Source: Bacteroidales bacterium
GTDB taxonomy: Bacteria > Bacteroidota > Bacteroidia > Bacteroidales > Marinilabiliaceae
DNA length: 64,000 bases
Direction of reading: 5' to 3'
Assembly (NCBI GenBank): GCA_024401335.1
Contig: JAKSLH010000012.1
Span: 1 to 64,000 of the forward strand
Shown here: in pieces, positions 43,742 through 57,632 of the stretch
Layout of the letters: the number at the start of each line of letters is the position of its first letter
Position numbering within the stretch: the first letter of the stretch is position 1
Position numbers and translations under genes: made by a program
The notes under the pieces: generated by a model
The model's database searches: none
Seen by the model: only the letters and a program-made list of their open reading frames with translations
Told to the model about the DNA's origin: nothing

Positions 43742-44770
43742 TTATTTTGTGAGGGCTAAACGGAAACCATAGCAGCGTATGTTACTGCCGTATGCGCGGC
43801 AGTCAATGCCACGGTAGTTCGAGAAACAGTAGTCTGACAACGACTCCCATCCTCCACCTTTGATAGAGCGGAACAATGATGGGGTGGTGCATATAGGGTC
43901 GACACTGTTGATGTCGCTTTTGTCTTCCTTGTAGAATGTTGTGCTGAAGTAGTCGGCTGTCCATTCCCATACGTTACCCGACATGTCATAGAGTCCGAGT
44001 TCGTTTGGTTCCTTTGTGCCGCCTTTTTGCAGGTATGGCTTGCCAAATTCAAAATTCGGGTTGCCATATACGCATACCTTGTCGGCGTCGTCCGACCCGG
44101 CCCAGTAATGGTAGCGTGTGCCTCCTGCCTGGTTGGTGATGATTGTTGCTTTGTGCCCGCCATTTGATGCGTATTCCCATTCTGCTTCGGTAGGGAGTCT
44201 ATATTCAAGGCCTGTCATCTTGTTTAATTCTGAGAGAAATTCAACGATGTCTGGATAGTCTATCCAATAGGCAGGTAGTTCGTCGTCGAGGCCATCACCT
44301 TCGCTTGTGTCGTTAGGGTTGTTATAGCGAGTGTCTACACAGTAGCGGTTCATTATTCCGTCGCCATTGACATCGGCATATGGAGTCCATTTGGCGACAA
44401 CGGCGTCGGTTGTGCCCATCACGGCTCGCCAGAGGGCTTGTGTCACTTCGTATTTGCCTATGAGGAAGTCCTTGGTGATCTTTACCTCGTGCACCGGTCC
44501 TTCGTTGCCTTGGGCTGTCTCGCGATAGTTTGGTTTAGATGCGTCACGGCTTTGTGCACCCATATAGAAGGTGCCTTTTTCAACTGTAGCAAAAGAGCAG
44601 ACAAGTTTGTTGTCGACGTAGAGGTTGCCTTCTGCGTCGGCAGTTACTTTCTGTTGTCCGATGTGTTCGTAGGTCTTTTCCTGTGTTTCTGGGATGCTGT
44701 TGTTGTCATCGTCACAACTAGCAAAAACTGCAGTTGCCAAAATAAGCGCTGCGGTAGTTTTTTTATTCAT
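43742..44770 (-). CDS. SUMF1/formylglycine-generating-enzyme-like lipoprotein
   Basis: Lipoprotein of 342 residues with signal ending VFASC (lipid Cys at 19) followed by DDDN, an Asp-rich start linked to surface or retained lipoproteins in Bacteroidota. The SUMF1-fold domain has KGTFYMGAQSRDAS, the KYEVTQALWRAVMG segment, LEYRLPTEAEWEYASNGG, GLYDMSGNVWEWTADYF and RCYGFRLAL. The paired Cys of true formylglycine enzymes is not evident at the expected place, so a binding or structural role (as in gliding proteins of this fold) is as likely as catalysis. It is the first gene of an operon with the TonB receptor. Confidence 0.85.
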   Translation of the reverse strand: MNKKTTAALILATAVFASCDDDNNSIPETQEKTYEHIGQQKVTADAEGNLYVDNKLVCSFATVEKGTFYMGAQSRDASKPNYRETAQGNEGPVHEVKITKDFLIGKYEVTQALWRAVMGTTDAVVAKWTPYADVNGDGIMNRYCVDTRYNNPNDTSEGDGLDDELPAYWIDYPDIVEFLSELNKMTGLEYRLPTEAEWEYASNGGHKATIITNQAGGTRYHYWAGSDDADKVCVYGNPNFEFGKPYLQKGGTKEPNELGLYDMSGNVWEWTADYFSTTFYKEDKSDINSVDPICTTPSLFRSIKGGGWESLSDYCFSNYRGIDCRAYGSNIRCYGFRLALTK

Positions 44771-44857
44771 AAAAATGATAGTTAATAATGTTCTATAGTG
44801 TGTCGTCAGTCGTCTATATTGTTAATAGCAGGAACGGACTCCGCAACTGTACTATCG

Positions 44858-44865
44858 CAAAAATA
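44858..44865 (-). promoter_or_regulatory. -7 promoter element of the SUMF1-TonB receptor operon
   Basis: TATTTTTG on the minus strand implies a 5' leader of about 80 bases before the lipoprotein ATG at 44770. The rest of the 195-base gap to the next gene is AT-rich with no other clear feature. Confidence 0.5.
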
Positions 44866-44965
44866 TAAATAAAAATGAAATAATATGCGCTTATAAGTAT
44901 TAATAAGTTTTTATGGTACAAATGTGATAATATATATGTAATACAGATGTATAATGGTGTATTTG

Positions 44966-46036
44966 TTATATCACTATATACCCAAGTGATATGACGCTTA
45001 TGCTTATCCAGAGTATGATGCCTTGGAAAAGTGGACGTATGCCGACAGTCTTTAGTGTTTTGCGTGTGAGTCCGGCACCGATGAAGAAAAGTGAAAGGGT
45101 TATCATGCTCTTGGCCAGGCGGTTTACACATCCGCTTATAGCCGTGCCTATGGTGGATGCCTCTTCTCCGATGACACTTGCGTTGGATAGAATGTAGGTG
45201 TTGACCAGTATTGCTACGACAAACCAGATGATAAATGTAGGGATCGTCTTATACCATGGTTTGCTTACGCCTTCGTTGTTTTTGTCGCTACGGAAGAAGA
45301 ATGGGGTAGTGAGCACCAGTGCGACTATCCATAAGGCTCGTGTGAGTTTGACTGTGGTTGCAACTTCGAGGGCTGATATGCCTTCCGAATGTAGCATTTC
45401 AGGGTGCATCTGGTCGTAGGCTGCGCCTGCTCCAACTACCGAACTCGTGTCGTGGATGGCTATAGCGGCCCACATGCCGAACTGCTTCATTGTCATGCCT
45501 ATGGCATCGCCGATATACGGGAAGACAAACAGGGCTATGGCGTTGAGCACGAAGACTACACCGAGTGCAACAGACATCGATTCTGAACGAGCCTTTATTG
45601 TTGGTCCTACAGCAGCAATGGCCGAGCCGCCACAGATGGCAGTGCCCGATGATATGAGGTAGCTGGTCTGAGAGTCTACCTTGAGCATTTTGCGGCCGAT
45701 GACATATCCGAGTGCAAGAGTGCCGAATACGCTTATGATGGTGAACATCATGCCTTCGCGGCCCGAGGCTATTGCGGCGTTGACATTCATGCCAAATCCG
45801 AGTCCGATGACAGAGTACTGGAGCATCTTCTTTGACATCAGTTTGGTGAAGTTTTCATACGTGGAGCCAAATATGAGTGCGAATGCAATGCCGATGAGAA
45901 GTGCGACAGGCGATGACACCCATGAGCCTATCCATGCCATAGGGCCGAGGTCGAGTCCAAATTGTTTGATGGCAAATTCAGCCAGAAGAGATATGGCCAG
46001 TACGGCCACGATTGCTACATATAGAATCTTGTTCAT
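44966..46036 (-). CDS. YeiH-family (UPF0324) putative sulfate/anion exporter
   Basis: Inner-membrane protein of 356 residues with about ten helices. The family signature is visible in YSVIGLGFGMNVNAAI, SYLISSGTAICGGSAIAAVG and IAIHDTSSVVGAGAAYD. UPF0324 members are listed as putative sulfate or anion exporters; the substrate has not been settled for most. It is monocistronic. A TAACTTTG -7 element at 46071-46078 precedes the start by 35 bases. Confidence 0.88.
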   Translation of the reverse strand: MNKILYVAIVAVLAISLLAEFAIKQFGLDLGPMAWIGSWVSSPVALLIGIAFALIFGSTYENFTKLMSKKMLQYSVIGLGFGMNVNAAIASGREGMMFTIISVFGTLALGYVIGRKMLKVDSQTSYLISSGTAICGGSAIAAVGPTIKARSESMSVALGVVFVLNAIALFVFPYIGDAIGMTMKQFGMWAAIAIHDTSSVVGAGAAYDQMHPEMLHSEGISALEVATTVKLTRALWIVALVLTTPFFFRSDKNNEGVSKPWYKTIPTFIIWFVVAILVNTYILSNASVIGEEASTIGTAISGCVNRLAKSMITLSLFFIGAGLTRKTLKTVGIRPLFQGIILWISISVISLGYIVI

Positions 46037-46193
46037 GCTTTTCGTGTCGCGCTAAATTTGTTTTGCAACGCAAAGTTAATGATATTCTATTGCATTATGC
46101 GTTGGTTCTATAAATTATAGTTTTTAAATCAGTCTTCTTTGATGATTATTGTCGTGTTATAATGTTTCATATCCAAAATTTCGTTTGATGTTT

Positions 46194-49100
46194 TTATTCT
46201 TCTGCAGCCATCGGGAGCTCCTCTTCATCAGCAGTGTCATAGTTTTTTATTGACACACTCTCGCTTCTATGTTCTTCGAAGTTTTCTACCTGATCCATAA
46301 CCTTAGAGAACACCTCTGGGCTATACTGAGGTGGATAGCCATTCTTTATAAGACAAATCTTGATGTCGAGCTTAAGCTGGTTGCGTACGTTCTGATTGTT
46401 GAGCCAGTCGGCAAAGCTGGATTTTGTGTCTATAATCTCTTTTACTTTCTTGGCTAGTGTTCTGCATTTCTCATTGATAACAATCCCATCTACATTCTTA
46501 TCTTCTCCATAAACAAAATTATGCTGGTCGCGAAGCGCTAAAAGAATATCATAGAATGCTTTTTCTTCGAATGTGAGTCCCATCTTGCGGAAACTCTCTC
46601 GACTCTCATTCATCTTCGTTAGAATCTCAAGAGCTTGTTCTGTAGCTGACTTGATGATGTCTTCAGACGCTTGTTCTTGCGTTGCGCCTGCTTCTTCTGC
46701 CGTCAGATGTTTGCGACGTTCGTGATATTCAGCAATGGTCTTCTCGAGCATCTCTTGGAATTTCTTGGCCTCCGTTTGGTTGGTTTTTCCATACTCCTTT
46801 ATCTGCTTTTTGAGCATCTTGATGAGCAGTTCTAGTTTTGTCGCCGGCATCTTGACATCAGAAAGGCGTTCGAAATACTCTGCAGAGAAGATGTCTTCTT
46901 CTTCGCCTGTCTCAAGAACACTTTCGACCTTATTGTATTTCAACGCCTGCTCTACCATCTTTGAAACTGTGCAGTTCATGGTGTCGGCATCGATATCGGA
47001 TGTGCCGCTCATTTTGCGGACAAAGCCAGCTATCGCCATGAAACTCTGCGCAAGAGCAGACTCTTCTTCTCCCAGTTCACCAGATGGCTGGCAGATGTCG
47101 TACGCTGTACGCATACGCTTGACAGACTGGAGGAAATATGTCTTGAAAGATACTTGCTGTGTTTTCTTTTTGCCTTCGGAATTGAGAACTTTAGTCGACA
47201 TGAAAACGAATTCCGCTGCTTCTGCAAGAAGTTTGTAGCGAAGCATTGCTTCACATTCAGGGTTCATGAATGGTGTAATGTCAAAACCTACAAACAGGCG
47301 TTTGATTATCTCCAGTTCTTCACGGAAAATCATGGTAGCTTGCTCCACATCATCGGATGTCGGAGCAACTGATGTGTCTCCACCATATATTTTCATGGCT
47401 TCGCGCATATTGTCTCGAATGCCAATATAGTCAATGATGAAGCCATAATCCTTACCTTTGTATTTGCGATTTACACGACTAATCGTCTGAATAAGCAGAT
47501 GTTTCTGCAGCGGTTTGTCGTTATAGAGGTATGTAAGAGAAGGAACGTCAAAGCCTGTAATCCACATATCTACCACAATGACAATGCTGAAATTAGACTT
47601 AGGTTGCTTGAACGCAGCATCAAGGTCGGCCGATCGTTGGTCGTTCTTGACTCCTCCTAGATAGTTATACATTTCCGCCTCGTCGTTGCTTCCAACGCTA
47701 GACACCATGGCGATAAATGGCATTGGCTTTAGTTTACGTAACTCCTTGTCGGTAACAGCAATACCATCAGGAGATTTTTTCTCCTCGAACCACTCCGGAT
47801 ACTTCTCCCTGAATACACTTAATAAGTTATATGCGATTGTGCGGTTTGCACAAGTAATCATGGCTTTCTGTACTCGATCTGGATCGGCTTCACAAGCTTT
47901 AGTGTAATGATCGTGAATATCTACAGCCAAACGCTCAAGACGATTCTTGTCGCCAAGAATAACCTCCATTGAGCTCATAGCCTGCTTGCTTGCCTCAATA
48001 TCCTCTGCAGTGGCACCATCTTCAGAACACTGCTTGTAGTAGTTTTCGATATCCTCAACTTTCTGATTGTCAAGCAGTACTTTTGCTATGCGAGGATGGT
48101 ACTTTATGGCAACTGTAAGGCCATCGGCAACTGCCTGGTCCATGGTGTAACGGTCAATCTCCTCACCGAAGGTCTGATAGGTCTCGGCTATAGGTGTACC
48201 AGTAAAGCCAACGAAAGTAGCATGAGGAAGAGCCTCTTTGAGCACCTTGGCGTATGGCTTGGATATCATCGCCTTCATATTCTCGTTTTCATCCTTGGAG
48301 AACTGTATCTTCTTGGAATGCTCGAGCTGGGTGCGATGTGCTTCATCAGAGAAGCAAATGATATTACGACGGTCGTTGATGAGACCTATCTTATCGTCTT
48401 TGCGGTCGCAGAACTTCTGTATGGTACAGATGTAGAATCCACCGCTTTGGCGAGAACCTAACTCGCTTCGCAAATGGGCTCTGTTCTTTACGACGGATAC
48501 CTCGCCAAGGTTGAGAAACTCCTTGCTCTTGGTAAAGAGTTTTGCTCCTTGTTGCTGGAGGTCTTCTCGGTCAACGATAAGAATGATGGTTGGAGAACCA
48601 ATCTCGGGAACATCTGTGCATCGGAGTGCCAACTGACGGGCAAGAAAAGCCATGGTGTATGTCTTTCCGCAACCTGTGGCTCCGAAATATGTTCCTCCTT
48701 TGCCGCTCTTGGTGGCAACTGAGTTTATGATGCTTTGTTTGAGGAGCTTTGAGGCAAAGAACTGTGGATAACGACAGACTATCTCTTGTTCGTCACTATC
48801 GTAAATAGAGTCTTGAAAATATATGTAGTCACGGAATATCTCAAGAAAACGTTGAGGTGAATAGACTCCTTTTATCATGGTCTCCATCTCCTTAAATGGA
48901 AGAGTGGATACCTTGTCGCCCTCGTTGACACGGCGCCATGCGTAATAGTGTTCGTATGGTGTACGCACAGTGCCAAAACGAGTCTTCACACCATCGGAGA
49001 TGCAAGAAAGAGGACAATAGTGGAGCAGGTGAGGAATGTCTCGCCAATAACGGATGGTGATTTGCTCCCATGCGTCTTTTATGGTGGCATGTGCATCAGC

Positions 49101-49586
49101 CGGATTTTTAAGTTCGATGATACACAGTGGCATTCCATTGACAAAAAGCATCACGTCTGGTCGGCGGTCTTTTATTGCACCGTTGTTGACGTAATCGACA
49201 GTGAACTGATTGACAACACGGAAAATGTTGTTCTTGTAGTTGTTGAAGTCGATAAGCGACACCATGCGTGCCATTCCGTTTTGAGGCGTAAACTGCACAC
49301 CATCGACCATCCAATTGTAAACTTTATGGAGTGTGGCAAAGTCGGTTTCGGCACCAACGAGACGGACGTTGTCGAATATCTGACTGACCTCGTCGGTAGT
49401 AAGGTCACTGTTAGTATCGGCAATGAACTTCTTGAAATCGTCAGCAATAAGCACATCGGTGCGACGGCTACGCACAATCTTATCGCCAGCAATGTAAGTC
49501 CACCCCTCGGCTTCGAGATAGCCGACGAAGGCGTATTCGTAGTCGGATTCGCAGTAACGACCGTTATAGTTGGTGAGTTTGGACAT
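46194..49586 (-). CDS. hsdR: Type I restriction enzyme, R subunit (HsdR)
   Basis: Motor and nuclease subunit, 1130 residues. The PD-(D/E)xK nuclease has D144 (RRPDVMLF) and E158/K160 (PLCIIELKNP). The SF2 translocase has Walker A GATGCGKT at 302-309, the DEAH box (ICFSDEAHRTQ), motif III-like FVGFTGTPIAE and motif VI-like LIQTISRVNRKYKGKDYG. The C-terminal helical region that contacts the methylase core follows. It is the last gene of the operon and starts six bases after the reverse transcriptase stop, so its translation depends on an mRNA that also encodes the transcriptase. Confidence 0.96.
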   Translation of the reverse strand: MSKLTNYNGRYCESDYEYAFVGYLEAEGWTYIAGDKIVRSRRTDVLIADDFKKFIADTNSDLTTDEVSQIFDNVRLVGAETDFATLHKVYNWMVDGVQFTPQNGMARMVSLIDFNNYKNNIFRVVNQFTVDYVNNGAIKDRRPDVMLFVNGMPLCIIELKNPADAHATIKDAWEQITIRYWRDIPHLLHYCPLSCISDGVKTRFGTVRTPYEHYYAWRRVNEGDKVSTLPFKEMETMIKGVYSPQRFLEIFRDYIYFQDSIYDSDEQEIVCRYPQFFASKLLKQSIINSVATKSGKGGTYFGATGCGKTYTMAFLARQLALRCTDVPEIGSPTIILIVDREDLQQQGAKLFTKSKEFLNLGEVSVVKNRAHLRSELGSRQSGGFYICTIQKFCDRKDDKIGLINDRRNIICFSDEAHRTQLEHSKKIQFSKDENENMKAMISKPYAKVLKEALPHATFVGFTGTPIAETYQTFGEEIDRYTMDQAVADGLTVAIKYHPRIAKVLLDNQKVEDIENYYKQCSEDGATAEDIEASKQAMSSMEVILGDKNRLERLAVDIHDHYTKACEADPDRVQKAMITCANRTIAYNLLSVFREKYPEWFEEKKSPDGIAVTDKELRKLKPMPFIAMVSSVGSNDEAEMYNYLGGVKNDQRSADLDAAFKQPKSNFSIVIVVDMWITGFDVPSLTYLYNDKPLQKHLLIQTISRVNRKYKGKDYGFIIDYIGIRDNMREAMKIYGGDTSVAPTSDDVEQATMIFREELEIIKRLFVGFDITPFMNPECEAMLRYKLLAEAAEFVFMSTKVLNSEGKKKTQQVSFKTYFLQSVKRMRTAYDICQPSGELGEEESALAQSFMAIAGFVRKMSGTSDIDADTMNCTVSKMVEQALKYNKVESVLETGEEEDIFSAEYFERLSDVKMPATKLELLIKMLKKQIKEYGKTNQTEAKKFQEMLEKTIAEYHERRKHLTAEEAGATQEQASEDIIKSATEQALEILTKMNESRESFRKMGLTFEEKAFYDILLALRDQHNFVYGEDKNVDGIVINEKCRTLAKKVKEIIDTKSSFADWLNNQNVRNQLKLDIKICLIKNGYPPQYSPEVFSKVMDQVENFEEHRSESVSIKNYDTADEEELPMAAEE

Positions 49587-49592
49587 AAGTTA

Positions 49593-51095
49593 TTATAAGA
49601 CAAATGAAACATTGGCTCCCTTTAGCGTTTTCCAATCATCATCAGGCAAATCGCTTGCAGGTAAACTTTCATAAATGAACAACCAATTTCTATCAAAATC
49701 TTCTTGGTTGTTTTTTAAATCAACTGCATGTTTTCTAAGAAGAGCTATTTCTACTTCATTGTTGTATTTTTTGAAATATAAAAAAGACAATAATTTAAAA
49801 ATACAAGATTCATTATCAATGGAATCTTGGGCTTTTACACTGTTTATATGAAAATCATATTTTCTAGCAAAAAACAAGGCATAACAAACCGCATCAAAAT
49901 TTTTTGCTTTTATTTCTTGATCAAATAATTTATTTGCAAAATATTCTATTTCGCCTTTGTCAACATTGAATTTTTTAAATACATATTCATCAATACATTG
50001 TACTAAATATGGATATAGTAAACATAAATGAAATATGGTTTTGACACATAATATTTTTGCTTGATTTGTCATTACGTCAATTGGCAAAGCTTTTATAGCA
50101 TAATTAAGGACAGCACTATTCCCATTATTTTTCTGCATTAACTCAATCGCATTGTCAAAATAAGATTGAGCACTTATGTAATCAAATTTGTCATCTCGAA
50201 AGAAGTTTTTTGTATTACTTATTTGCCTAATCCATTGTTCTGCCAAAGCTTTGGGCAACATAGAAATTTCAGTTTTTTTGTCATTGATAGAAAGGTCAAA
50301 TTTTCTCAATTCTGAATTAAGATCAATTAGAAATAAATGCGCTTTCTCGAAACTATCAACATAACATGTATAGTCGTCAATGTTACGGATGAATTTCCAA
50401 CCTTTTGAATATAATTCTTTATCTACAACAGTTAGTATTATTTCTCCTAACAAATTTGATATGTGCGGTCCAATCAGCAAACCATGCGTTTCTCCATATT
50501 TACAATTTTGAACATAATGATCTATTTGATTATACCACAGATTTCTTCCTCCTCTACCCGCATGCAACTTTGCCTCATTCTTGCCTACTAATGCCCAAGG
50601 CAACGAATGTGTATATATGCTTGGAAAACATTTTGATATATCTGCATGGACAATATATTTGCTTCCAATCAGTAGATCTAATTCTGGACTCCCATCTTCT
50701 TTCCAATTATCATAATTCATTTTGAAAAGCATTCTGGAATTGTTCATCTTTCGAAGATGAATTCGACTAACAATATAGTCTTGATTATTTGTGTTTTGAG
50801 AGAAATGATTTGTTAGTTGCTCCCAATTCTCTTCTACGCATTTACATAACTGTTGGTAAGACATTGGCGTAGGTATTCCGAGCTCGCGAACGCTGTTCGT
50901 ATTCCTTACACTATCATACCTGACAAAAGAATGCCATTTATCCTCGAAAGCAGGAGAATTGGCTTTACAGTAATCATAGAATGACTTTGATGTAAACATC
51001 GGAGGTATCTTTTCTGAGAACATACCAAAGCCCAACAGGCCTTCATAAAGTTCATCCGACGATATTTCCATTATAAAATCAGAGTATGTTTTCAT
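49593..51095 (-). CDS. Reverse transcriptase of the UG/Abi (defence-associated) type
   Basis: Protein of 500 residues with a reverse transcriptase palm. The first catalytic Asp is D152 in IVHADISKCFPSIY. In place of the usual PQG motif it has THGLLIGPHISNLLGEIIL (204-221). The active-site pair is D240-D241 in FIRNIDDYTCYVDS, and LSINDKKTEISMLP follows as motif D. The C-terminal ~210 residues are helical with no maturase, endonuclease or integrase domain and end FDRNWLFIYESLP. This architecture fits the unknown-group/Abi transcriptases used in phage defence; the exact group is uncertain. It lies 3 bases after hsdS and 6 before hsdR, and is more AT-rich than hsdR and hsdM, which suggests separate acquisition. 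Confidence 0.88.
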   Translation of the reverse strand: MKTYSDFIMEISSDELYEGLLGFGMFSEKIPPMFTSKSFYDYCKANSPAFEDKWHSFVRYDSVRNTNSVRELGIPTPMSYQQLCKCVEENWEQLTNHFSQNTNNQDYIVSRIHLRKMNNSRMLFKMNYDNWKEDGSPELDLLIGSKYIVHADISKCFPSIYTHSLPWALVGKNEAKLHAGRGGRNLWYNQIDHYVQNCKYGETHGLLIGPHISNLLGEIILTVVDKELYSKGWKFIRNIDDYTCYVDSFEKAHLFLIDLNSELRKFDLSINDKKTEISMLPKALAEQWIRQISNTKNFFRDDKFDYISAQSYFDNAIELMQKNNGNSAVLNYAIKALPIDVMTNQAKILCVKTIFHLCLLYPYLVQCIDEYVFKKFNVDKGEIEYFANKLFDQEIKAKNFDAVCYALFFARKYDFHINSVKAQDSIDNESCIFKLLSFLYFKKYNNEVEIALLRKHAVDLKNNQEDFDRNWLFIYESLPASDLPDDDWKTLKGANVSFVL

Positions 51096-51098
51096 ATT

Positions 51099-52217
51099 TT
51101 ATTCCTCCTTTCTCCCTTCCTCAATACTCCCTTTTATCAATATCGGACAAATATCCTTTATCTGCGCTTTCATACGCTCGTTGATAGTTTGCCTCTTTTG
51201 ATATACAGTAAAAATGTCAACAACACTTTGCTGGATATTAATATCTGGAATAGGAATTGTTATTTCGCCCATGTCATCAAATGAAAATATGTCACGAGTC
51301 GTTCCAAATGAAATAAAACCCGCATATCGTTGAGTTTCTGCACGATTCATCCATAAGAGCAAGTATTTCGGCAATAACTTATCTTTTTTGATAACTTCAA
51401 ATACTTGATAAGAATTTGAAACTACACAATCAGGTCCTTCTCTAAGTGCAATAGGAAGTTTTGTGTTATGTGCTTTCATTACTTTATTAAAAGCGAATTG
51501 CCCAGTTCTCACGACACTTCCATTTTCTGAATCTTCTGCAATTCGTTTAGGCTCAGTAAAAACATGTTCAACATTTACACCTTGAAATAGAGTTATAGCA
51601 TTGTTCTCATTTTTTTCATTCCTTTCTTCAATATACCCTCCAATCTTCTCGCAAGGCATTTCCCTTCTCAAATCCTCAATATACCCATCACACACCAGTT
51701 TCAAATCCTCCAGCCCACGCTCGTATGCCTGCTGGTTTTTAAGCATGGCATTGTAGATGTTGACGTATTTTTGCTGGATATCAAGGGAGGGAAGGTTAAT
51801 GGTGATATCACTCATATCGGCAAAACTAAATTCGGGACGTTGACTTCCAAAATTTCTAAAAGTGACTTCCCTACAAAATTCCCTTCGCCTAAAGTAAATA
51901 TACAAATAAGTTGGATCTATTATTTTTTTCCCTTCTTCGGTAAGGTAAAACACTATGTAAAGATGAGAAACTATACACCGTCCTTCTGTTCTATACGCCA
52001 AAGAACCTAAATCAATTCGAGTTGGGTTATAAACAAACGCTCCATTATCCACTATCTTATATGGCTTCAGATTAACATCTATAGGCTCTCCTTTGGGAGT
52101 TGCAAAAACACCTTTTGTATTAACCCCAACAATCATATCTTCCTTATAGAGTAAATCTCTATTATTCTTTGTAGAGCGTATGATATAGTCTCCTAATCTA
52201 ATCTTATTCAATCCCAT
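51099..52217 (-). CDS. hsdS: Type I restriction enzyme, specificity subunit (HsdS)
   Basis: DNA-recognition subunit, 372 residues. It has two target-recognition domains (about 1-150 and 190-330), each followed by a conserved helix: IQQKYVNIYNAMLKNQQAY with an adjoining coiled coil, and the related QQSVVDIFTVYQKRQTINER near the C-terminus. PSLDIQQKY and PIPDINIQQS mark the ends of the two domains. Length and symmetry are normal, so the subunit should be functional. The target cannot be predicted. The recognition domains are AT-rich compared with the conserved helices, as is common for exchanged domains. Confidence 0.93.
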   Translation of the reverse strand: MGLNKIRLGDYIIRSTKNNRDLLYKEDMIVGVNTKGVFATPKGEPIDVNLKPYKIVDNGAFVYNPTRIDLGSLAYRTEGRCIVSHLYIVFYLTEEGKKIIDPTYLYIYFRRREFCREVTFRNFGSQRPEFSFADMSDITINLPSLDIQQKYVNIYNAMLKNQQAYERGLEDLKLVCDGYIEDLRREMPCEKIGGYIEERNEKNENNAITLFQGVNVEHVFTEPKRIAEDSENGSVVRTGQFAFNKVMKAHNTKLPIALREGPDCVVSNSYQVFEVIKKDKLLPKYLLLWMNRAETQRYAGFISFGTTRDIFSFDDMGEITIPIPDINIQQSVVDIFTVYQKRQTINERMKAQIKDICPILIKGSIEEGRKEE

Positions 52218-52227
52218 AGCTCGAATA

Positions 52228-52779
52228 TTAATCTTGTTCGTCGCCTATCAGTTCTGCCAATTCTTGCATTTTGCGTTGTAGAAGTGCCTTGTTGGGCAGT
52301 TTCAATTCGTATTCAGCCACCAAAGTTGGTGATAGACTACGGCTAAGGGCATACTCCACTACTTCGTCATCCTTGCTTTTACAGAGCAGTACGCCAATGC
52401 TTGGATTTTCGTGAGGCTTCTTCACATCGCGGTCGAGAGTCCAGCTAATTTCTCTCAGCAGTGCTGAGAGTTTTTCATCGGCATCTTTATAGGCCTCATA
52501 AAACTGCTTCATACGCCACAAGTTCTGCTTCGAGAAACCTTCGGAATTCGGTTCCTGTGTGCGTATGTAGTTGGCCAGTTCTTCCACCACCGACTTGCCC
52601 CAGCCAGCTTCATCTATCTGATGGCTAATGTAGCTACCGACCTGCCAATAGAGGTCTATCAATGATGTGTTTACGGCAGCAAAGACCTTTTGCTTCGCCA
52701 CCTTAATCATTTCCATCACTTCGTCAAACTGGTGTGGAATATTATTATTTGTTCTTGCAATTTCGTTATTCGATTTCAT
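52228..52779 (-). CDS. DUF1016 (YhcG-like) protein lacking the nuclease core by internal deletion
   Basis: Protein of 183 residues. The first ~114 residues are a DUF1016 N-terminal winged-helix domain (AAVNTSLIDLYWQVGSYISH, then QNLWRMKQFYEAYK) ending ALLREISWT. The next residue begins LDRDVKKPHENPSIGVLLC and VVEYALSRSLSPTLVAEYEL, which in full-length relatives lies after the nuclease active site. About 160 residues, including the Asp and ExK, are missing, and the frame is kept. It therefore looks like a catalytically dead protein that retains its outer parts. It sits 12 bases after the intact DUF1016 gene and 10 before hsdS. Confidence 0.85.
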   Translation of the reverse strand: MKSNNEIARTNNNIPHQFDEVMEMIKVAKQKVFAAVNTSLIDLYWQVGSYISHQIDEAGWGKSVVEELANYIRTQEPNSEGFSKQNLWRMKQFYEAYKDADEKLSALLREISWTLDRDVKKPHENPSIGVLLCKSKDDEVVEYALSRSLSPTLVAEYELKLPNKALLQRKMQELAELIGDEQD

Positions 52780-52791
52780 AACCTATCCCCC

Positions 52792-53901
52792 TTATTTGTT
52801 AGAAGAGTTAAGTTCGTTTTCGATTTCCTCGATAGAAGGAAGCGAAGACTTGAAGTTTTCGGGAACGAGTTTAGAAAGCTCATATTCCGAAATGCCAAGA
52901 GGTATGTTTGTCATCTCAAGGGCGTATTGTGCCAGGATATTGTCTTTCTTCTTACAGATCAACAAGCCAATTGTTGCGTCGTCGCGGTCAGTCTTGAGTT
53001 GGTGGTTGACGGCTACGACGTATGTACCTAATTGCCCTATATTGTCGGAGTCGAATTCGTCGGTCTTTATCTCAATCACCACATATCGGTGGAGCGGTAT
53101 ATGATAGAAGAGCATGTCTATAAACTTTTCCTTCTCGCCAATCATTATGCGATACTCGCGACCTACGTAGGCGAAGCCCTTGCCAAGTTCGGTGAGGAAG
53201 CGCATGATGTTGGTCTCCAAAGCGTTCTTCAACTCCCTCTCGTTATAACTTTTGGTCATCGAAAGGAAGTCGAAACTATATGGGTCTTTTGTTATCTGCT
53301 GTGCCAAATCGCTGTCAACCTCAGGCAATGTGCGCTTGAAGTTTGTTACAGCTTTTCCCTGACGTTCATATAAGTCGGTATCGAGAAAGTTGAGCAACAC
53401 GGAGCGACTCCAATTGTTTATGTATGTCTGATGAACATAGAACATGGCTTTGGGCATGTCTTTGCTAAATTTATCCATGATATACTTGTGGTGATTCCAT
53501 GGAATAGACATCAACTCATTAAATACCATTTTTTCGGCAGAAATATTTACCCCAAGTTGGGGTAAACTTTCTTTACCTAATTCTTCCCCAAGTTGGGGTA
53601 ATTTTGCAAATAGCTTATAATAAGTAACATAGAACCTCTTGATATAATACAAGTTGGAGGTTGACAAACCTTTCACATCAGGCAACGCCGATTGCAAATC
53701 GTGGCTGACAGAAGCCATGACACCTTGTCCCCAACGCTCTTCGACTTTGAGTTCAACAATGTCTCTGCCTAAAGACCAGTAGAACTGCAGGAGTTCGCTG
53801 TTCACCTTTATGGCAGCCTTTATTTGACTCTGCTTGAAGCGCAGACTCAAATTATTTATCCACGTCTTGTATTCTTCGTCTATATGTATCAAATTACTCA
53901 T
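52792..53901 (-). CDS. DUF1016 (YhcG-like) PD-(D/E)xK nuclease
   Basis: Protein of 369 residues. The DUF1016 N-terminal domain (1-140) has AAIKVNSELLQFYWSLGRDI, TSNLYYIKRFYVTYYKLF and FNELMSIPWNHHKYIM. The nuclease has D262 (KFIDMLFYH) and E277/K279 (YVVIEIKTDEF), so the active site is intact. A 36-base in-frame duplication gives two LPQLG segments at residues 101-117. The family is frequently found inside type I restriction loci, but its role there is unclear. It follows hsdM by 7 bases. Confidence 0.9.
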   Translation of the reverse strand: MSNLIHIDEEYKTWINNLSLRFKQSQIKAAIKVNSELLQFYWSLGRDIVELKVEERWGQGVMASVSHDLQSALPDVKGLSTSNLYYIKRFYVTYYKLFAKLPQLGEELGKESLPQLGVNISAEKMVFNELMSIPWNHHKYIMDKFSKDMPKAMFYVHQTYINNWSRSVLLNFLDTDLYERQGKAVTNFKRTLPEVDSDLAQQITKDPYSFDFLSMTKSYNERELKNALETNIMRFLTELGKGFAYVGREYRIMIGEKEKFIDMLFYHIPLHRYVVIEIKTDEFDSDNIGQLGTYVVAVNHQLKTDRDDATIGLLICKKKDNILAQYALEMTNIPLGISEYELSKLVPENFKSSLPSIEEIENELNSSNK

Positions 53902-53908
53902 ATCGCTA

Positions 53909-55522
53909 TCATTCTATTCCATAACCAATTCCCTTGAAAGCCTCAATAAGCATGTTTTGCGACTTCTTCTCGGCTGCCATAATCTCTTTCATCTCATTTT
54001 GTATGCGAGCCATCTCCTTGGCATAATCTATGTCGAGATCGTGGTCGATAAACTCGATGTATTTGCTTGGGGTGAGTGCCCATCCTTTTTGCTCAATCTC
54101 TGCAATATTGACACTGCGATAGAGTTCCGCAACTTCGTAGTTTGAACCGTCAGTGTCTTTCTCCTGCCACTTGTGGTAGATAGATGCAGCCCGATCAATC
54201 TGGTCTTGCATAAGAATAACCTTTTTCTTTTGCTCGCCCTTGACAGGATTCTCTGTCCATTGACGCAAATCCACAAAGAGGATTTCGCCCTTGCGACTGC
54301 GCAGATTACGACCATGATAGTCTCCACCTCCTTTGTTCTGATTAAGAATCCAAAGAGTGACACTGATGTCGGTAGTGATAAACAATTCTCTAGGAAGTAC
54401 AATGATGGCTTCTACCTTGTCGTTTTCAATAAGTTTCTTTCTGATTTCTAATGTATCGCTATCGTTCAACGCACCATTGGCGAGAAGAAAACCGGCTACA
54501 CCTGTGGCAGGTTTAAGGTGCGAAAGCATGTGCAGTATCCAAGCATAGTTGGCGTTGCTCTCAGGAGGTGTTGCATAGTCGGCCCATCGAGCATCATCTT
54601 TAAGATTGAAATCGTACCAGCTCTTGAGATTGAATGGCGGATTGGCCATGATGTAGTCAAAGTACAAACCTCTATGCAAATCATTGGTGAACGAAGAGTC
54701 GCTACCTTCGCCAAGGTTGTGGCTAAGGCCACGAAGCGCCAGGTTCATCTTTGCCAATCGGTATGTAGCAGCCTCTTTTTCCTGCCCATAAATGTTAATG
54801 CGGTTTATGTCGCCTTGACGAGACTTCACTAGTTCGGCCGACTGTATGAACATACCGCCAGAACCACATGCTGGGTCATATAGAGTGCCTTCGAATGGCT
54901 CTATCATTGCAGCAATAAGCTGAACAACATCATGAGGTGTATAGAATTCGCCCTCCTCTTTGGTGGCATTTACTGCAAACTCTTTGAGAAAATATTCATA
55001 TACTCGGCCAATGAGGTCGCGTTCCTCACCAAAAGCCTTGTGGCTAATCTTGTTGATTTCGTCAACAAGTTTCTTGATGTCGTTGGCGGCAAGGTTGCGC
55101 TGCGTAAACGTACCCTCAACAAAACAGCCTTTCAGTAGTTTGTTGCTCGTTGCTATGCTATGCAAAGCCGTATCGAGAGCGACATTCAAACCAGGAGCAG
55201 ATGTATTGATGATAGTGGACCAACGTGCTTCGAGAGGCAAGTCGTAAGTACCATCGGCAAAAGAGGCATCTTCAAAGAATGCCTTGAAAATCTCTTCGTC
55301 GTCAGGATTAAGACCTTGCTCTATAAGTGTCTGACGCAGAGCTGCAACGCCATCTTCATACTTTTCGCCAATAAAACGAAGAAATATAAGCGTAAGCATC
55401 ATGTCACGTTTCTCGAAGAATGACCCCGAATTGCGTGCAGAACGAAGTATATCGCGACAATTGAAAAGAATGTCGTCTATGTTGAGAGGCTTTTCTGCCT
55501 TTGTTTTTAATTGCTTTGCCAT
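53909..55522 (-). CDS. hsdM: Type I restriction enzyme, methylase subunit (HsdM)
   Basis: N6-adenine methyltransferase of 537 residues. The N-terminal helical domain (DILFNCRDILRSARNSGSFF) is followed by the SAM-binding motif LYDPACGSGGMFIQ (215-228) and the catalytic NPPF at 294-297. GEFYTPHDVVQLIAAMI precedes the SAM site as in other HsdM proteins. It is the first gene of the operon; I start at the ATG at 55522. It should form the M2S core that both methylates host sites and directs restriction. Confidence 0.95.
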   Translation of the reverse strand: MAKQLKTKAEKPLNIDDILFNCRDILRSARNSGSFFEKRDMMLTLIFLRFIGEKYEDGVAALRQTLIEQGLNPDDEEIFKAFFEDASFADGTYDLPLEARWSTIINTSAPGLNVALDTALHSIATSNKLLKGCFVEGTFTQRNLAANDIKKLVDEINKISHKAFGEERDLIGRVYEYFLKEFAVNATKEEGEFYTPHDVVQLIAAMIEPFEGTLYDPACGSGGMFIQSAELVKSRQGDINRINIYGQEKEAATYRLAKMNLALRGLSHNLGEGSDSSFTNDLHRGLYFDYIMANPPFNLKSWYDFNLKDDARWADYATPPESNANYAWILHMLSHLKPATGVAGFLLANGALNDSDTLEIRKKLIENDKVEAIIVLPRELFITTDISVTLWILNQNKGGGDYHGRNLRSRKGEILFVDLRQWTENPVKGEQKKKVILMQDQIDRAASIYHKWQEKDTDGSNYEVAELYRSVNIAEIEQKGWALTPSKYIEFIDHDLDIDYAKEMARIQNEMKEIMAAEKKSQNMLIEAFKGIGYGIE

Positions 55523-55685
55523 TGTTAACAACGTTTTTCAATAGAATTAGGATAATTGTTCATGTTTGTGTGTAATTACCCGAATTATAGACCGTAAGTA
55601 TAACACATTTTTACGGACTACATGGTATAATGGACACTTATTTTACATTTGAAATCATCATAGTCATTACATCTTACTTGTGCCA
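55523..55685. other. Gap upstream of the restriction operon
   Basis: A 163-base AT-rich gap that should hold the hsdM promoter. TAATGGACAC and TTTACATTTG are present, but I cannot assign a clear -33/-7 pair on the minus strand. Confidence 0.4.
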
Positions 55686-56879
55686 TCAGTACATCAACCC
55701 GAAAAGCCACATTGGAATCTTGTTGTCAAAACCTATCTCGCAGTCGTCGGCAACTATATAGCTGTTCTTTATGTCCTTGATCTGTTTGTATCCTTTACTT
55801 CGGCCTCCTACTTCAAGAGTATGGAGTTCGTCAACAAAAATATCGCCAGATGAAGGCATGCTCATTTTGTGTTCTACACACAACTGCGATGCTATGAATG
55901 TTTCGCGTAGTGTTCCTTTGTCGGTCGAAGGTGTCAGCGCGTACATAATATTGCTGTTGGCAAATAGTATCTTTTCTGGCTTGGTCAGAGTTTTCATCCC
56001 TGTAGACTCAGAGTATAATCTGCGAATTATTGCAGCTTTGTCCAACAAATCTAATAGTTTTATGAGGTTGTTTCTGGAAACACTTAGTGTTGTGCATAAA
56101 TTAGATATGTTGAGTGTGTAGGGCACTGTTTCTGCCATCACGCCGAGTAGTTTTCTTGTCTTATATATTGAATCATATTCTATTCTGCTCACTGCAGGTA
56201 TTTCACTTTCTATTATCGAATCAAGAACCGATTGTAGTCTTTCGTAGAAACCATCGCCCGAGTCTCTGTAGAAAGGGTAATATCCTGTTTTCAGGTATTT
56301 GTCGAAGTGCTGTAGTACTTTTGTTTTTGCTGTTATTGATGCGGCTTTTTTGATATGGTTTGTCAGTATTTCATCAAATGTCAGCACAGGCAGGTCGGCG
56401 ATGCCTTCCAGTTTCAGATATTCTCTGAACGAGAGGCCTTCCAGTGTGTACATGCGGCACCTTCGTGAAAGGTCTGCAATCATTGTCTCGCCAATTCTTA
56501 ACATTGATGACCCTGTTATGACGATATTCATCGTTGGGTATGAGTCGTATATATTCTTCACTTCTCGTTCCCAATTACGATATTTATGTATTTCATCAAG
56601 AAACAGATGTGTTCCGCCGTGTGTGTAATGGTATTCAGCAAGTTCGGCAATAGTGTGGTTCGCAAACCACAGATTATCCAATGATGCGTAAATAGCGGTG
56701 TCGGAGTCTCCAAATGACTTTTTGATATGCTGGAGCATAAGAGTCGTTTTCCCTGTTCCTTTGGCTCCTTTTATTGCAATCAATCTGTTGTTCCAGTTGA
56801 TATGGTCGTATAGGTATCTAACGTACGAGATCTCTGTACTTTCGATAAGTCTGTGATGTATGGCAAATAAGTTCTGCAT
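55686..56879 (-). CDS. AAA-family ATPase (DUF4143-like)
   Basis: Protein of 397 residues. Walker A is AIKGAKGTGKTTL near residues 36-47, Walker B is HLFLDEIHKYRNWEREVKNI near 91-110, and the sensor is IVITGSSML. The C-terminal half contains a winged-helix-like part (TLNISNLCTTLSVSRNNLIK) and the segment GDIFVDELHTLEVGGRSKGY, similar to DUF4143-class ATPases with a degenerate nuclease-like end. Such proteins are common, mobile and poorly understood; some act with toxins. It is separate from the restriction operon and is preceded by 33-base-period repeats. Confidence 0.85.
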   Translation of the reverse strand: MQNLFAIHHRLIESTEISYVRYLYDHINWNNRLIAIKGAKGTGKTTLMLQHIKKSFGDSDTAIYASLDNLWFANHTIAELAEYHYTHGGTHLFLDEIHKYRNWEREVKNIYDSYPTMNIVITGSSMLRIGETMIADLSRRCRMYTLEGLSFREYLKLEGIADLPVLTFDEILTNHIKKAASITAKTKVLQHFDKYLKTGYYPFYRDSGDGFYERLQSVLDSIIESEIPAVSRIEYDSIYKTRKLLGVMAETVPYTLNISNLCTTLSVSRNNLIKLLDLLDKAAIIRRLYSESTGMKTLTKPEKILFANSNIMYALTPSTDKGTLRETFIASQLCVEHKMSMPSSGDIFVDELHTLEVGGRSKGYKQIKDIKNSYIVADDCEIGFDNKIPMWLFGLMY

Positions 56880-56913
56880 ATCAATAACGTATTAAGTGTT
56901 GCAAATATAAAAA

Positions 56914-57053
56914 TTTTACTTTCCAATGATGAAAATGAAGTGTATTTTTTACTTTCCAATGACGAAAATGATGCGCCTTTTTTACTTTCCAATGACGAGT
57001 TGTAATAAATGTACGGTATAAATTAAGTGATATTGTAATAAATGTACGGTATA
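56914..57053 (+). repeat. Two direct-repeat families sharing a 33-base period upstream of the AAA ATPase
   Basis: TTTTACTTTCCAATGA starts at 56914, 56947 and 56980, exactly 33 bases apart, each followed by a similar YGAAAATGAWG tail in the first two units. Then TTGTAATAAATGTACGGTATA (20-21 bases) occurs at 57000 and 57033, again 33 bases apart. The array begins 35 bases before the ATPase start on the minus strand. It could be a regulator-binding array, three helical turns per unit. Confidence 0.85.
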
Positions 57054-57218
57054 TCTTATTCCTATTGCGAGGTCGTCTCACCTGTCTTTTAAAATCCCTG
57101 TTTCGAAAGATAGCACATAGATGCCAAATGTTAATCGGCAACTGTTTTGTGGAAAAAATGAATAGAATGTAACAAAAGTTATGTGGACGCGTATTATCCA
57201 CAAAAAAAGCAATCTGGT

Positions 57219-57632
57219 ATGGGAAACTGTAGCATTAACAATAGCGTTGAGCTTACTTCTGATCTTCAGAATATAAGTATCGTCGAGAAGTTGATTAATA
57301 ATCAGGCTGTGGCTTGTAAGCTGAATACTGAGGTGTATGGCAAGCTGTTGATCGCTGTGGTTGAGGCTCTTAATAATGCCATCGTTCATGGTAATAACAT
57401 GGACAAGGACAAGAAGGTTAAGGTGGCTTTTGAGATTGATAGCGAGAAAATTGAATATACCATATCCAATGAGGGCGAAAGCTTCGACCCTGAGTCTGTC
57501 CCTGATCCTACTTCACCTGAGAATCTCGAGAATGAAGGGGGTAGGGGAGTATTCCTTATAAAGAATCTTGCCGATGAGGTGCATTATAGCGATGAGGGAC
57601 GCACTGTTACTATGCGTTTCAACTTGCATTAA
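57219..57632 (+). CDS. RsbW-like anti-sigma/HATPase protein
   Basis: Cytoplasmic GHKL ATPase of 137 residues, of the anti-sigma-factor serine kinase type. The N-box is LLIAVVEALNNAIVHGN, G1 is SNEGESFDPESVPDPTSP, and G2 is EGGRGVFLIKNLADEV. The ATG at 57219 gives a compact single domain. RsbW-type kinases bind sigma factors or phosphorylate antagonist proteins; no partner lies next to it. The gene is convergent with the DUF4421 gene and their ends overlap by four bases. Confidence 0.85.
   Translation: MGNCSINNSVELTSDLQNISIVEKLINNQAVACKLNTEVYGKLLIAVVEALNNAIVHGNNMDKDKKVKVAFEIDSEKIEYTISNEGESFDPESVPDPTSPENLENEGGRGVFLIKNLADEVHYSDEGRTVTMRFNLH

Follow-up and report, generated by a model that had tools for sequence, protein, structure and literature searches.

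Why does a gene for a reverse transcriptase (RT) lie between the specificity and restriction genes of a type I restriction-modification operon? The question is raised by the window analysed here, a stretch of 64,000 nucleotides from a Bacteroidales bacterium of the family Marinilabiliaceae (contig JAKSLH010000012.1 of assembly GCA_024401335.1), and was answered in an original prediction, made from the letters of the window, by a composite defence in which the RT is a backup to restriction or senses its failure. The analysis favours a different answer: the RT is probably an abortive-infection polymerase of the DRT4/UG15 type that can act on its own, carried as cargo in a slot between hsdS and hsdR and co-expressed with the type I operon. 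The demonstrated part of this reading comprises the family of the RT, its intact active site, the operon-like spacing, the recurrent placement and the differing cargo of related bacteria. The features concerned are as follows.

55523..55685, minus strand: gap of 163 bases 5' of hsdM, the sole sizeable gap
53909..55522, minus strand: hsdM, type I DNA methyltransferase (N6_Mtase, HsdM_N; motifs DPACGSG and NPPF)
52792..53901, minus strand: full-length DUF1016/YhcG protein with a D...E-x-K stretch at 262 (PD-(D/E)XK nuclease domain)
52228..52779, minus strand: short DUF1016 protein (DUF1016_N and the last part of YhcG_C; nuclease core missing)
51099..52217, minus strand: hsdS, type I specificity subunit (two Methylase_S matches; GC 0.358)
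49593..51095, minus strand: RT of the DRT4/UG15 type, 500 residues (D152, D240 and D241 kept; GC 0.315)
46194..49586, minus strand: hsdR, type I restriction subunit (PD...ELK, the Walker A motif GATGCGKT and DEAH), beginning 6 bases past the RT gene

Family of the transcriptase and layout of its operon

The best PADLOC match of the RT among 39 was Drt4 (PDLC02178, E 8.6e-207, residues 1-499), with Drt6 (2.8e-89), UG30 (1.2e-61) and AbiK (5e-41) as the competing classes; three of the five models named Drt4 outscored Drt6 and two (PDLC02177 and PDLC02179) scored lower. The protein could also be aligned by sequence to the solved UG15 chain 21ou (E 1.7e-50, residues 28-483); enzymes of this group pair an RT domain with a C-terminal helical domain and form hexamers. 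Loci compared with the window carry L numbers, and L060 was used as the E. coli-type Drt4 reference in tree and identity comparisons; when its DNA was compared with 5,426 E. coli genomes, a single match came up, a gene of E. coli S30 that carries the annotation drt4 and is 89.5% identical. In a 26-row RT tree the window RT and L060 fell within a 17-row branch with a support of 99/99. L056 (split frame) and L061 (truncated, beginning like L060) were left out of the tree and of the counts, and the tree was also built without the viral RT loci (L064, L065, L067, L070-L094) and the weak relatives (L002-L020). Since the Drt4 profile, the UG15 chain and the L060 branch all point to this family, yet the NCBIfam cut-off is not reached, the RT is, as judged from its sequence, a divergent DRT4/UG15-type enzyme, a member of the family in the broad sense, without proven equivalence to the E. 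coli Drt4.

The catalytic aspartates D152 (in HADIS) and D240 and D241 (in NIDDY) did not vary in two alignments, one of 6 and one of 7 sequences, and tyrosines 4, 80, 128, 161, 242, 245, 363 and 475 were invariant across the 8 close RT relatives. RVT_1 was the only Pfam domain found. The original prediction, which had described a UG/Abi-type defence transcriptase with these aspartates intact and with no maturase, integrase or endonuclease part, was therefore borne out in this respect. A retron, a diversity-generating element or a group II intron that had landed in the operon would likewise leave an RT gene inside another operon, but such an origin is contradicted by the profile scores and is extremely improbable: the group II maturase profile TIGR04416 gave 43.9 bits against a cut-off of 300, no maturase match rose above its cut-off, the Drt4 profile is close, RVT_1 stands alone, and a scan of positions 44500-57500 up to E 1 matched no Rfam family that could represent a known RNA partner.

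The six genes run in one direction on the minus strand in the order hsdM, long DUF1016, short DUF1016, hsdS, RT and hsdR, and their gaps of 7, 12, 10, 3 and 6 bases in transcription order agree with the 3-12 bases first described. Judged from spacing alone, a single transcript would cover all six, and its promoter is likely to be located in the 163-base gap upstream of hsdM. The type I set is complete, as profile matches and a motif check found hsdM, hsdS and hsdR present and the HsdM and HsdR motifs intact. The RT gene starts 3 bases past hsdS, and AAAGGAGG lies before this start, within the last hsdS codons at the hsdS 3' end. A scan for sigma-70-type promoters found 30 sites against 24.3 +/- 5.3 expected, as a set not above chance, including two overlapping 9-of-12 matches on the minus strand near the RT end (49819-49790). 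Terminator-like sites numbered 15 against 8.1 +/- 3.2 expected; three of them are on the minus strand, at 51043-51027 (start of the RT gene), 49466-49454 (start of hsdR) and 46009-45993 (past hsdR). A Bacteroidota-type promoter pattern occurred 6 times in the window against 2.07 expected, one occurrence being on the minus strand within hsdS (51821-51851). These patterns speak neither for nor against a separate promoter and terminator around the RT, which the original prediction had named as a ground for its refutation.

Both of the DUF1016 genes named in the original prediction are present, the short one (52228-52779, 183 residues) without the nuclease core; lacking the D...E-x-K stretch of its full-length neighbour, it resembles an internally deleted paralogue. 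An AAA_14-type ATPase is encoded directly 5' of hsdM (55686-56879), and a 40.6% identical protein adjoins hsdR in another type I operon of the same genus (L117, 14118-15314).

The slot between hsdS and hsdR

HsdR relatives from the genus and family of the window were collected together with their surrounding DNA, in which open reading frames (ORFs) of at least 60 residues were listed. Eighteen operons with an hsdS confirmed by Pfam were counted (10 + 8); L109, L114, L115, L137 and L138 were left out, hsdS being out of view or unconfirmed. The 18 are not independent, as L106/L107, L129/L139 and L133/L135/L136 are near relatives. Between hsdS and hsdR, 17 of the 18 hold one to six ORFs, and L112 holds none. 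The families met there among the slot proteins searched are AAA_13 (L132, L134), DUF6088 (L139), PDDEXK_4 (L133), FRG (L108), AAA_15 (L110), SIR2_2 (L135), GmrSD (L117), AAA_21 (L131) and Mrr_cat (L106); the family search left 3 of 10 slot proteins without a family in one set, while in the other set one of 4 (L117, 4652-6466) stayed below the family cut-offs. The gap is a general cargo slot in the family of the window, and the proposed composite defence, in which the RT would sense failed restriction, was not borne out.

AAA_13 proteins lie directly past hsdS in two genomes of the window's family (L132, 2943-5171; L134, 8283-10961). We take these to be of the PrrC/RloC type, and the DUF6088 protein is presumably kin to AbiEi. 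Two other slot proteins, of 802 residues (L130, 8599-11007) and 328 residues (L129, 7637-8623), had no Pfam match at E 0.001 and are candidates for unnamed defence genes.

The DNA of L133 and L135 is 95.6% identical in hsdR, 97.9% in the hsdM region and 89.7% in the first part of hsdS, whereas no similarity was reported from the first part of hsdS up to hsdR, the cargo being unrelated. The ends are conserved, whereas the cargo and the remainder of hsdS are not, a pattern that was read as exchange. Differing cargo between nearly identical hsdM and hsdR genes makes the slot a good hunting ground for unnamed defence genes.

GC content was determined by part in 13 of the 18 operons and in L095. 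It was lower in hsdS than in hsdM in 14 of 14 operons and lower in the cargo than in hsdR, again in 14 of 14, if barely so in L113 (0.437 vs 0.440) and L131 (0.314 vs 0.329). The window agrees with this pattern, hsdS (0.358) and the RT (0.315) being low and hsdM (0.447) and hsdR (0.451) higher. Of the earlier suggestion that an AT-rich RT gene had been inserted into an older operon, the insertion remains likely, but hsdS belongs to the AT-rich stretch as well, and operons of this kind commonly have one. A search for direct repeats near the RT ends gave a longest common word of 8 bases and no clear insertion mark, and no pre-insertion (empty) site was found via the downstream flank in 6 genomes of the genus (stretches of 3.6 to 20 kb). 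This flank comparison was anchored on the neighbouring YeiH-like gene, of which a homologue was found in 8 of 15 genomes of the genus when the window's own is counted, 6 of the 7 others being compared; only the YeiH-like protein, of 13 window proteins, was matched in those 6 stretches.

Recurrence of the placement and its bearing on coupling

A close set of 8 RTs at least 40% identical to the window RT, the window included, was used to follow the linkage. Three of the 8 are embedded directly after hsdS and before hsdR, namely those of the window, L095 and L021. The order in L095 (genome G628, a contig of 4,044,777 bases) is hsdM, hsdS, RT, an HD-domain protein, further ORFs and hsdR, and the last 14 bases of hsdS are shared with the start of the RT gene; in L021, a 3,821-base contig of a Clostridia metagenome-assembled genome (MAG), the end of hsdS is followed after 14 bases by the RT, DUF3791, DUF3990, a small ORF and the start of hsdR. 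No hsd genes were found in the DNA in view at the other five close RTs (L029, L096, L099, L103 and L055; L055 starts at a contig end with its upstream side out of view, and L103 is an 8.1-kb contig), nor in that at 9 further RTs of the 17-row branch (L030, L031, L032, L057, L058, L059, L060, L104 and L105, the RT being terminal in the visible DNA of L059 and L104). Embedding was thus seen in 3 of 8 close relatives against 0 of 9 more distant ones. A scan for hsd genes beside 79 RT loci gave a sole, weak match, an HsdM-like one in the outermost part of L034 (36% over 97 residues). The five stand-alone close relatives are among these loci, L022-L028 duplicate the locations of L029-L035, and at most 1.5 kb either side of the matched stretch is included for 26 of the 79 (L002-L020, L022-L028). 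The HD-domain protein of L095 (10992-12938; HD and HD_assoc, dGTPase-like by eye) lies between the embedded RT and hsdR, and a nucleotide-depleting partner for a DNA-making RT would be an idea worth a look.

Genomes were counted with the Drt4 profile in groups that overlap and that include the own genome where it belongs. At E 1e-40, matches were obtained in 8 of 395 genomes in the class to which the window belongs, in 4 of 391 in that of G538 (an uncultured Clostridia bacterium MAG) and in 1 of 71 of the window's family, the one being the window's own genome; at E 1e-100, they were obtained in 5 of 296 genomes of the window's phylum and, around G628, in 1 of 67 of its order and 2 of 348 of its phylum. 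The linkage of the RT to hsdS and hsdR, for which recurrence in related genomes had been proposed as a check, recurs in two distant genomes (L095 and L021). A strong Drt4 match within the family is confined to the window's genome; near home, one of the refuting grounds named in the original prediction, a linkage that does not recur in related genomes, therefore applies. A search with the RT protein at E 1e-3 gave matches in 15 of 149 relatives, all except the own one partial and at most 42% identical, and one search of genome contigs yielded a single relative, L021. Plasmid searches matched 213 and 210 records and a phage search 9 records, none of them spanning 80% of the query.

The sole strong Drt4 match in 71 family genomes and the foreign composition of the gene would suit an RT that is a passenger of little or no function, retained only because hsdR is downstream. 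This is improbable, as the 500-residue frame is open, the catalytic aspartates are kept, the profile match is full-length, AAAGGAGG precedes the start and the arrangement recurs elsewhere. Still less credence can be given to an assembly artefact that fused a piece with the RT to a restriction operon: the source genome is in draft form, with 33 contigs, a completeness of 84.64% and a contamination of 0.11, and the step in composition is sharp, but the window sequence is free of N, the 3- and 6-base junctions are clean, and the same order is found in two other genomes, in one of them on a 4.04 Mb contig.

The restriction backbones were compared in an HsdR tree, which has long branches, that of the window included. 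The window and L095 as one clade were rejected (AU p 5.4e-64), and the HsdR of L021 was nearest by path to operons without an RT (53% identity to L108). The placement of the RT thus recurs on at least two different restriction backbones. Four positions set the three embedded RTs apart from the other five; any three of the 8 sequences, taken over the 56 possible triples, have 2.9 such positions on average, and 20 of the 56 have at least 4. No diagnostic indel was found among the 8 close RTs. The absence of a clear embedded-only signature argues against a special RT adapted to restriction-modification, although three sequences give little power; together with the five close relatives without hsd genes in view, it speaks against the built-in composite system first proposed.

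These results also bear on a PrrC-like guard, in which HsdMSR would bind and silence the RT and a phage anti-restriction protein would free it, so that the failure of restriction is punished. In favour of it, the RT is directly past hsdS in all three embedded cases, and AAA_13 proteins, presumably of the PrrC/RloC type, occupy the slot in L132 and L134. The place of PrrC in EcoprrI is presumably this very gap between hsdS and hsdR. According to passages of one source, PrrC is encoded within the EcoprrI operon, and the type I complex holds it until T4 Stp sets it free (PMC3874165). On the other side, 5 of the 8 close relatives have no hsd genes in view (with the upstream side of L055 not visible), the embedded RTs carry neither a clear signature nor a diagnostic indel, the RT is paired with different HsdR backbones, and the slot accepts many unrelated proteins. 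A coupling of this kind is unsupported and is considered unlikely. If it were true, untemplated DNA synthesis instead of tRNA cutting would end the infection, a new chemistry for a PrrC-like guard.

Several observations weigh against the RT as self-sufficient DRT4/UG15 cargo co-expressed with the operon. Its score with the NCBIfam Drt4 equivalog NF041749 was 389.5 bits, the cut-off of 450 not being reached, and it is only about 30% identical to the E. coli-type form L060; its activity may therefore differ from that of E. coli-type Drt4. One of the 30 sigma-70-like sites, a match of 9 of 12 positions on the minus strand (51124-51096), abuts the RT start and would permit separate expression. The position right after hsdS, with gaps of 3, 14 and -14 bases in the three embedded cases, shows more regularity than would be needed at a loose cargo site. 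A common origin of the embedded RTs is compatible with the RT tree, in which the three need two changes but a single clade is not rejected (AU p 0.17), and the HsdR fragment of L021 (155 residues) lies in the same broad branch as the window HsdR, so that only two backbones are clearly different.

Two proposed layers of defence, and known systems

Passages of two reviews describe DRT4 as performing template-independent, Tyr-primed synthesis of single-stranded DNA, triggered by a phage protein (PMC13213688, PMC13314766). In the window's operon, unmodified phage DNA would be cut by restriction in a first step. The RT would make untemplated, Tyr-primed single-stranded DNA, which host nucleases would normally clear; if a phage protein shielded this DNA, it would build up and the cell would stop. 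Restriction and polymerase would then be two layers inherited together, DRT4 acting as a fallback with its own trigger and physical contact not being needed. Two layers carried together form the simplest model.

The window RT resembles DRT4/UG15 (E. coli-type Drt4; solved chains 21ou and 9vdo) in its full-length homology and catalytic aspartates, and no known RNA partner was found for it (Rfam, 44500-57500); it differs in its low identity to L060, its score below the NCBIfam cut-off and its place within a restriction operon. One AbiK that is apparently part of a restriction system and one AbiA that lies in an operon with restriction genes are mentioned in passages of a source that name no hsdS-hsdR position (PMC8934634); both belong to other Abi RT families than the window RT.

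Defence genes embedded between hsdS and hsdR have already been described (DarTG2, TgvAB). Passages of PMC12255303 place DarTG2 of enteropathogenic E. coli (RptR defence island) between hsdS and hsdR, as the RT is in the window, and regard this site as a potential recombination hotspot; DarTG2 is, however, a toxin-antitoxin pair and not an RT. TgvAB, a defence system of two genes in Vibrio cholerae VPI-2, is nested in a type I operon like the window RT but is a GmrSD-like type IV enzyme against phages with modified DNA (PMC11411939). No description of a DRT4/UG15 RT between hsdS and hsdR was found in the literature searched, which did not include the likeliest places for one: the survey of UG/Abi enzymes, the primary paper on DRT4 and the preprint on embedding. 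A known effector thus meets a known slot in a pairing not encountered in that literature, and a DNA-synthesising abortive-infection enzyme joins the effectors known between hsdS and hsdR.

What the window shares with EcoprrI/PrrC (prrABCD) is a gene for an abortive effector nested inside a type I operon; PrrC is an anticodon nuclease, whereas the effector of the window is an RT-type polymerase (RVT_1 only) whose silencing by the type I complex would be hypothetical. The operon lets one put to a clean test the general question whether such nested genes are co-expressed passengers or are, like PrrC, under the control of the restriction complex.

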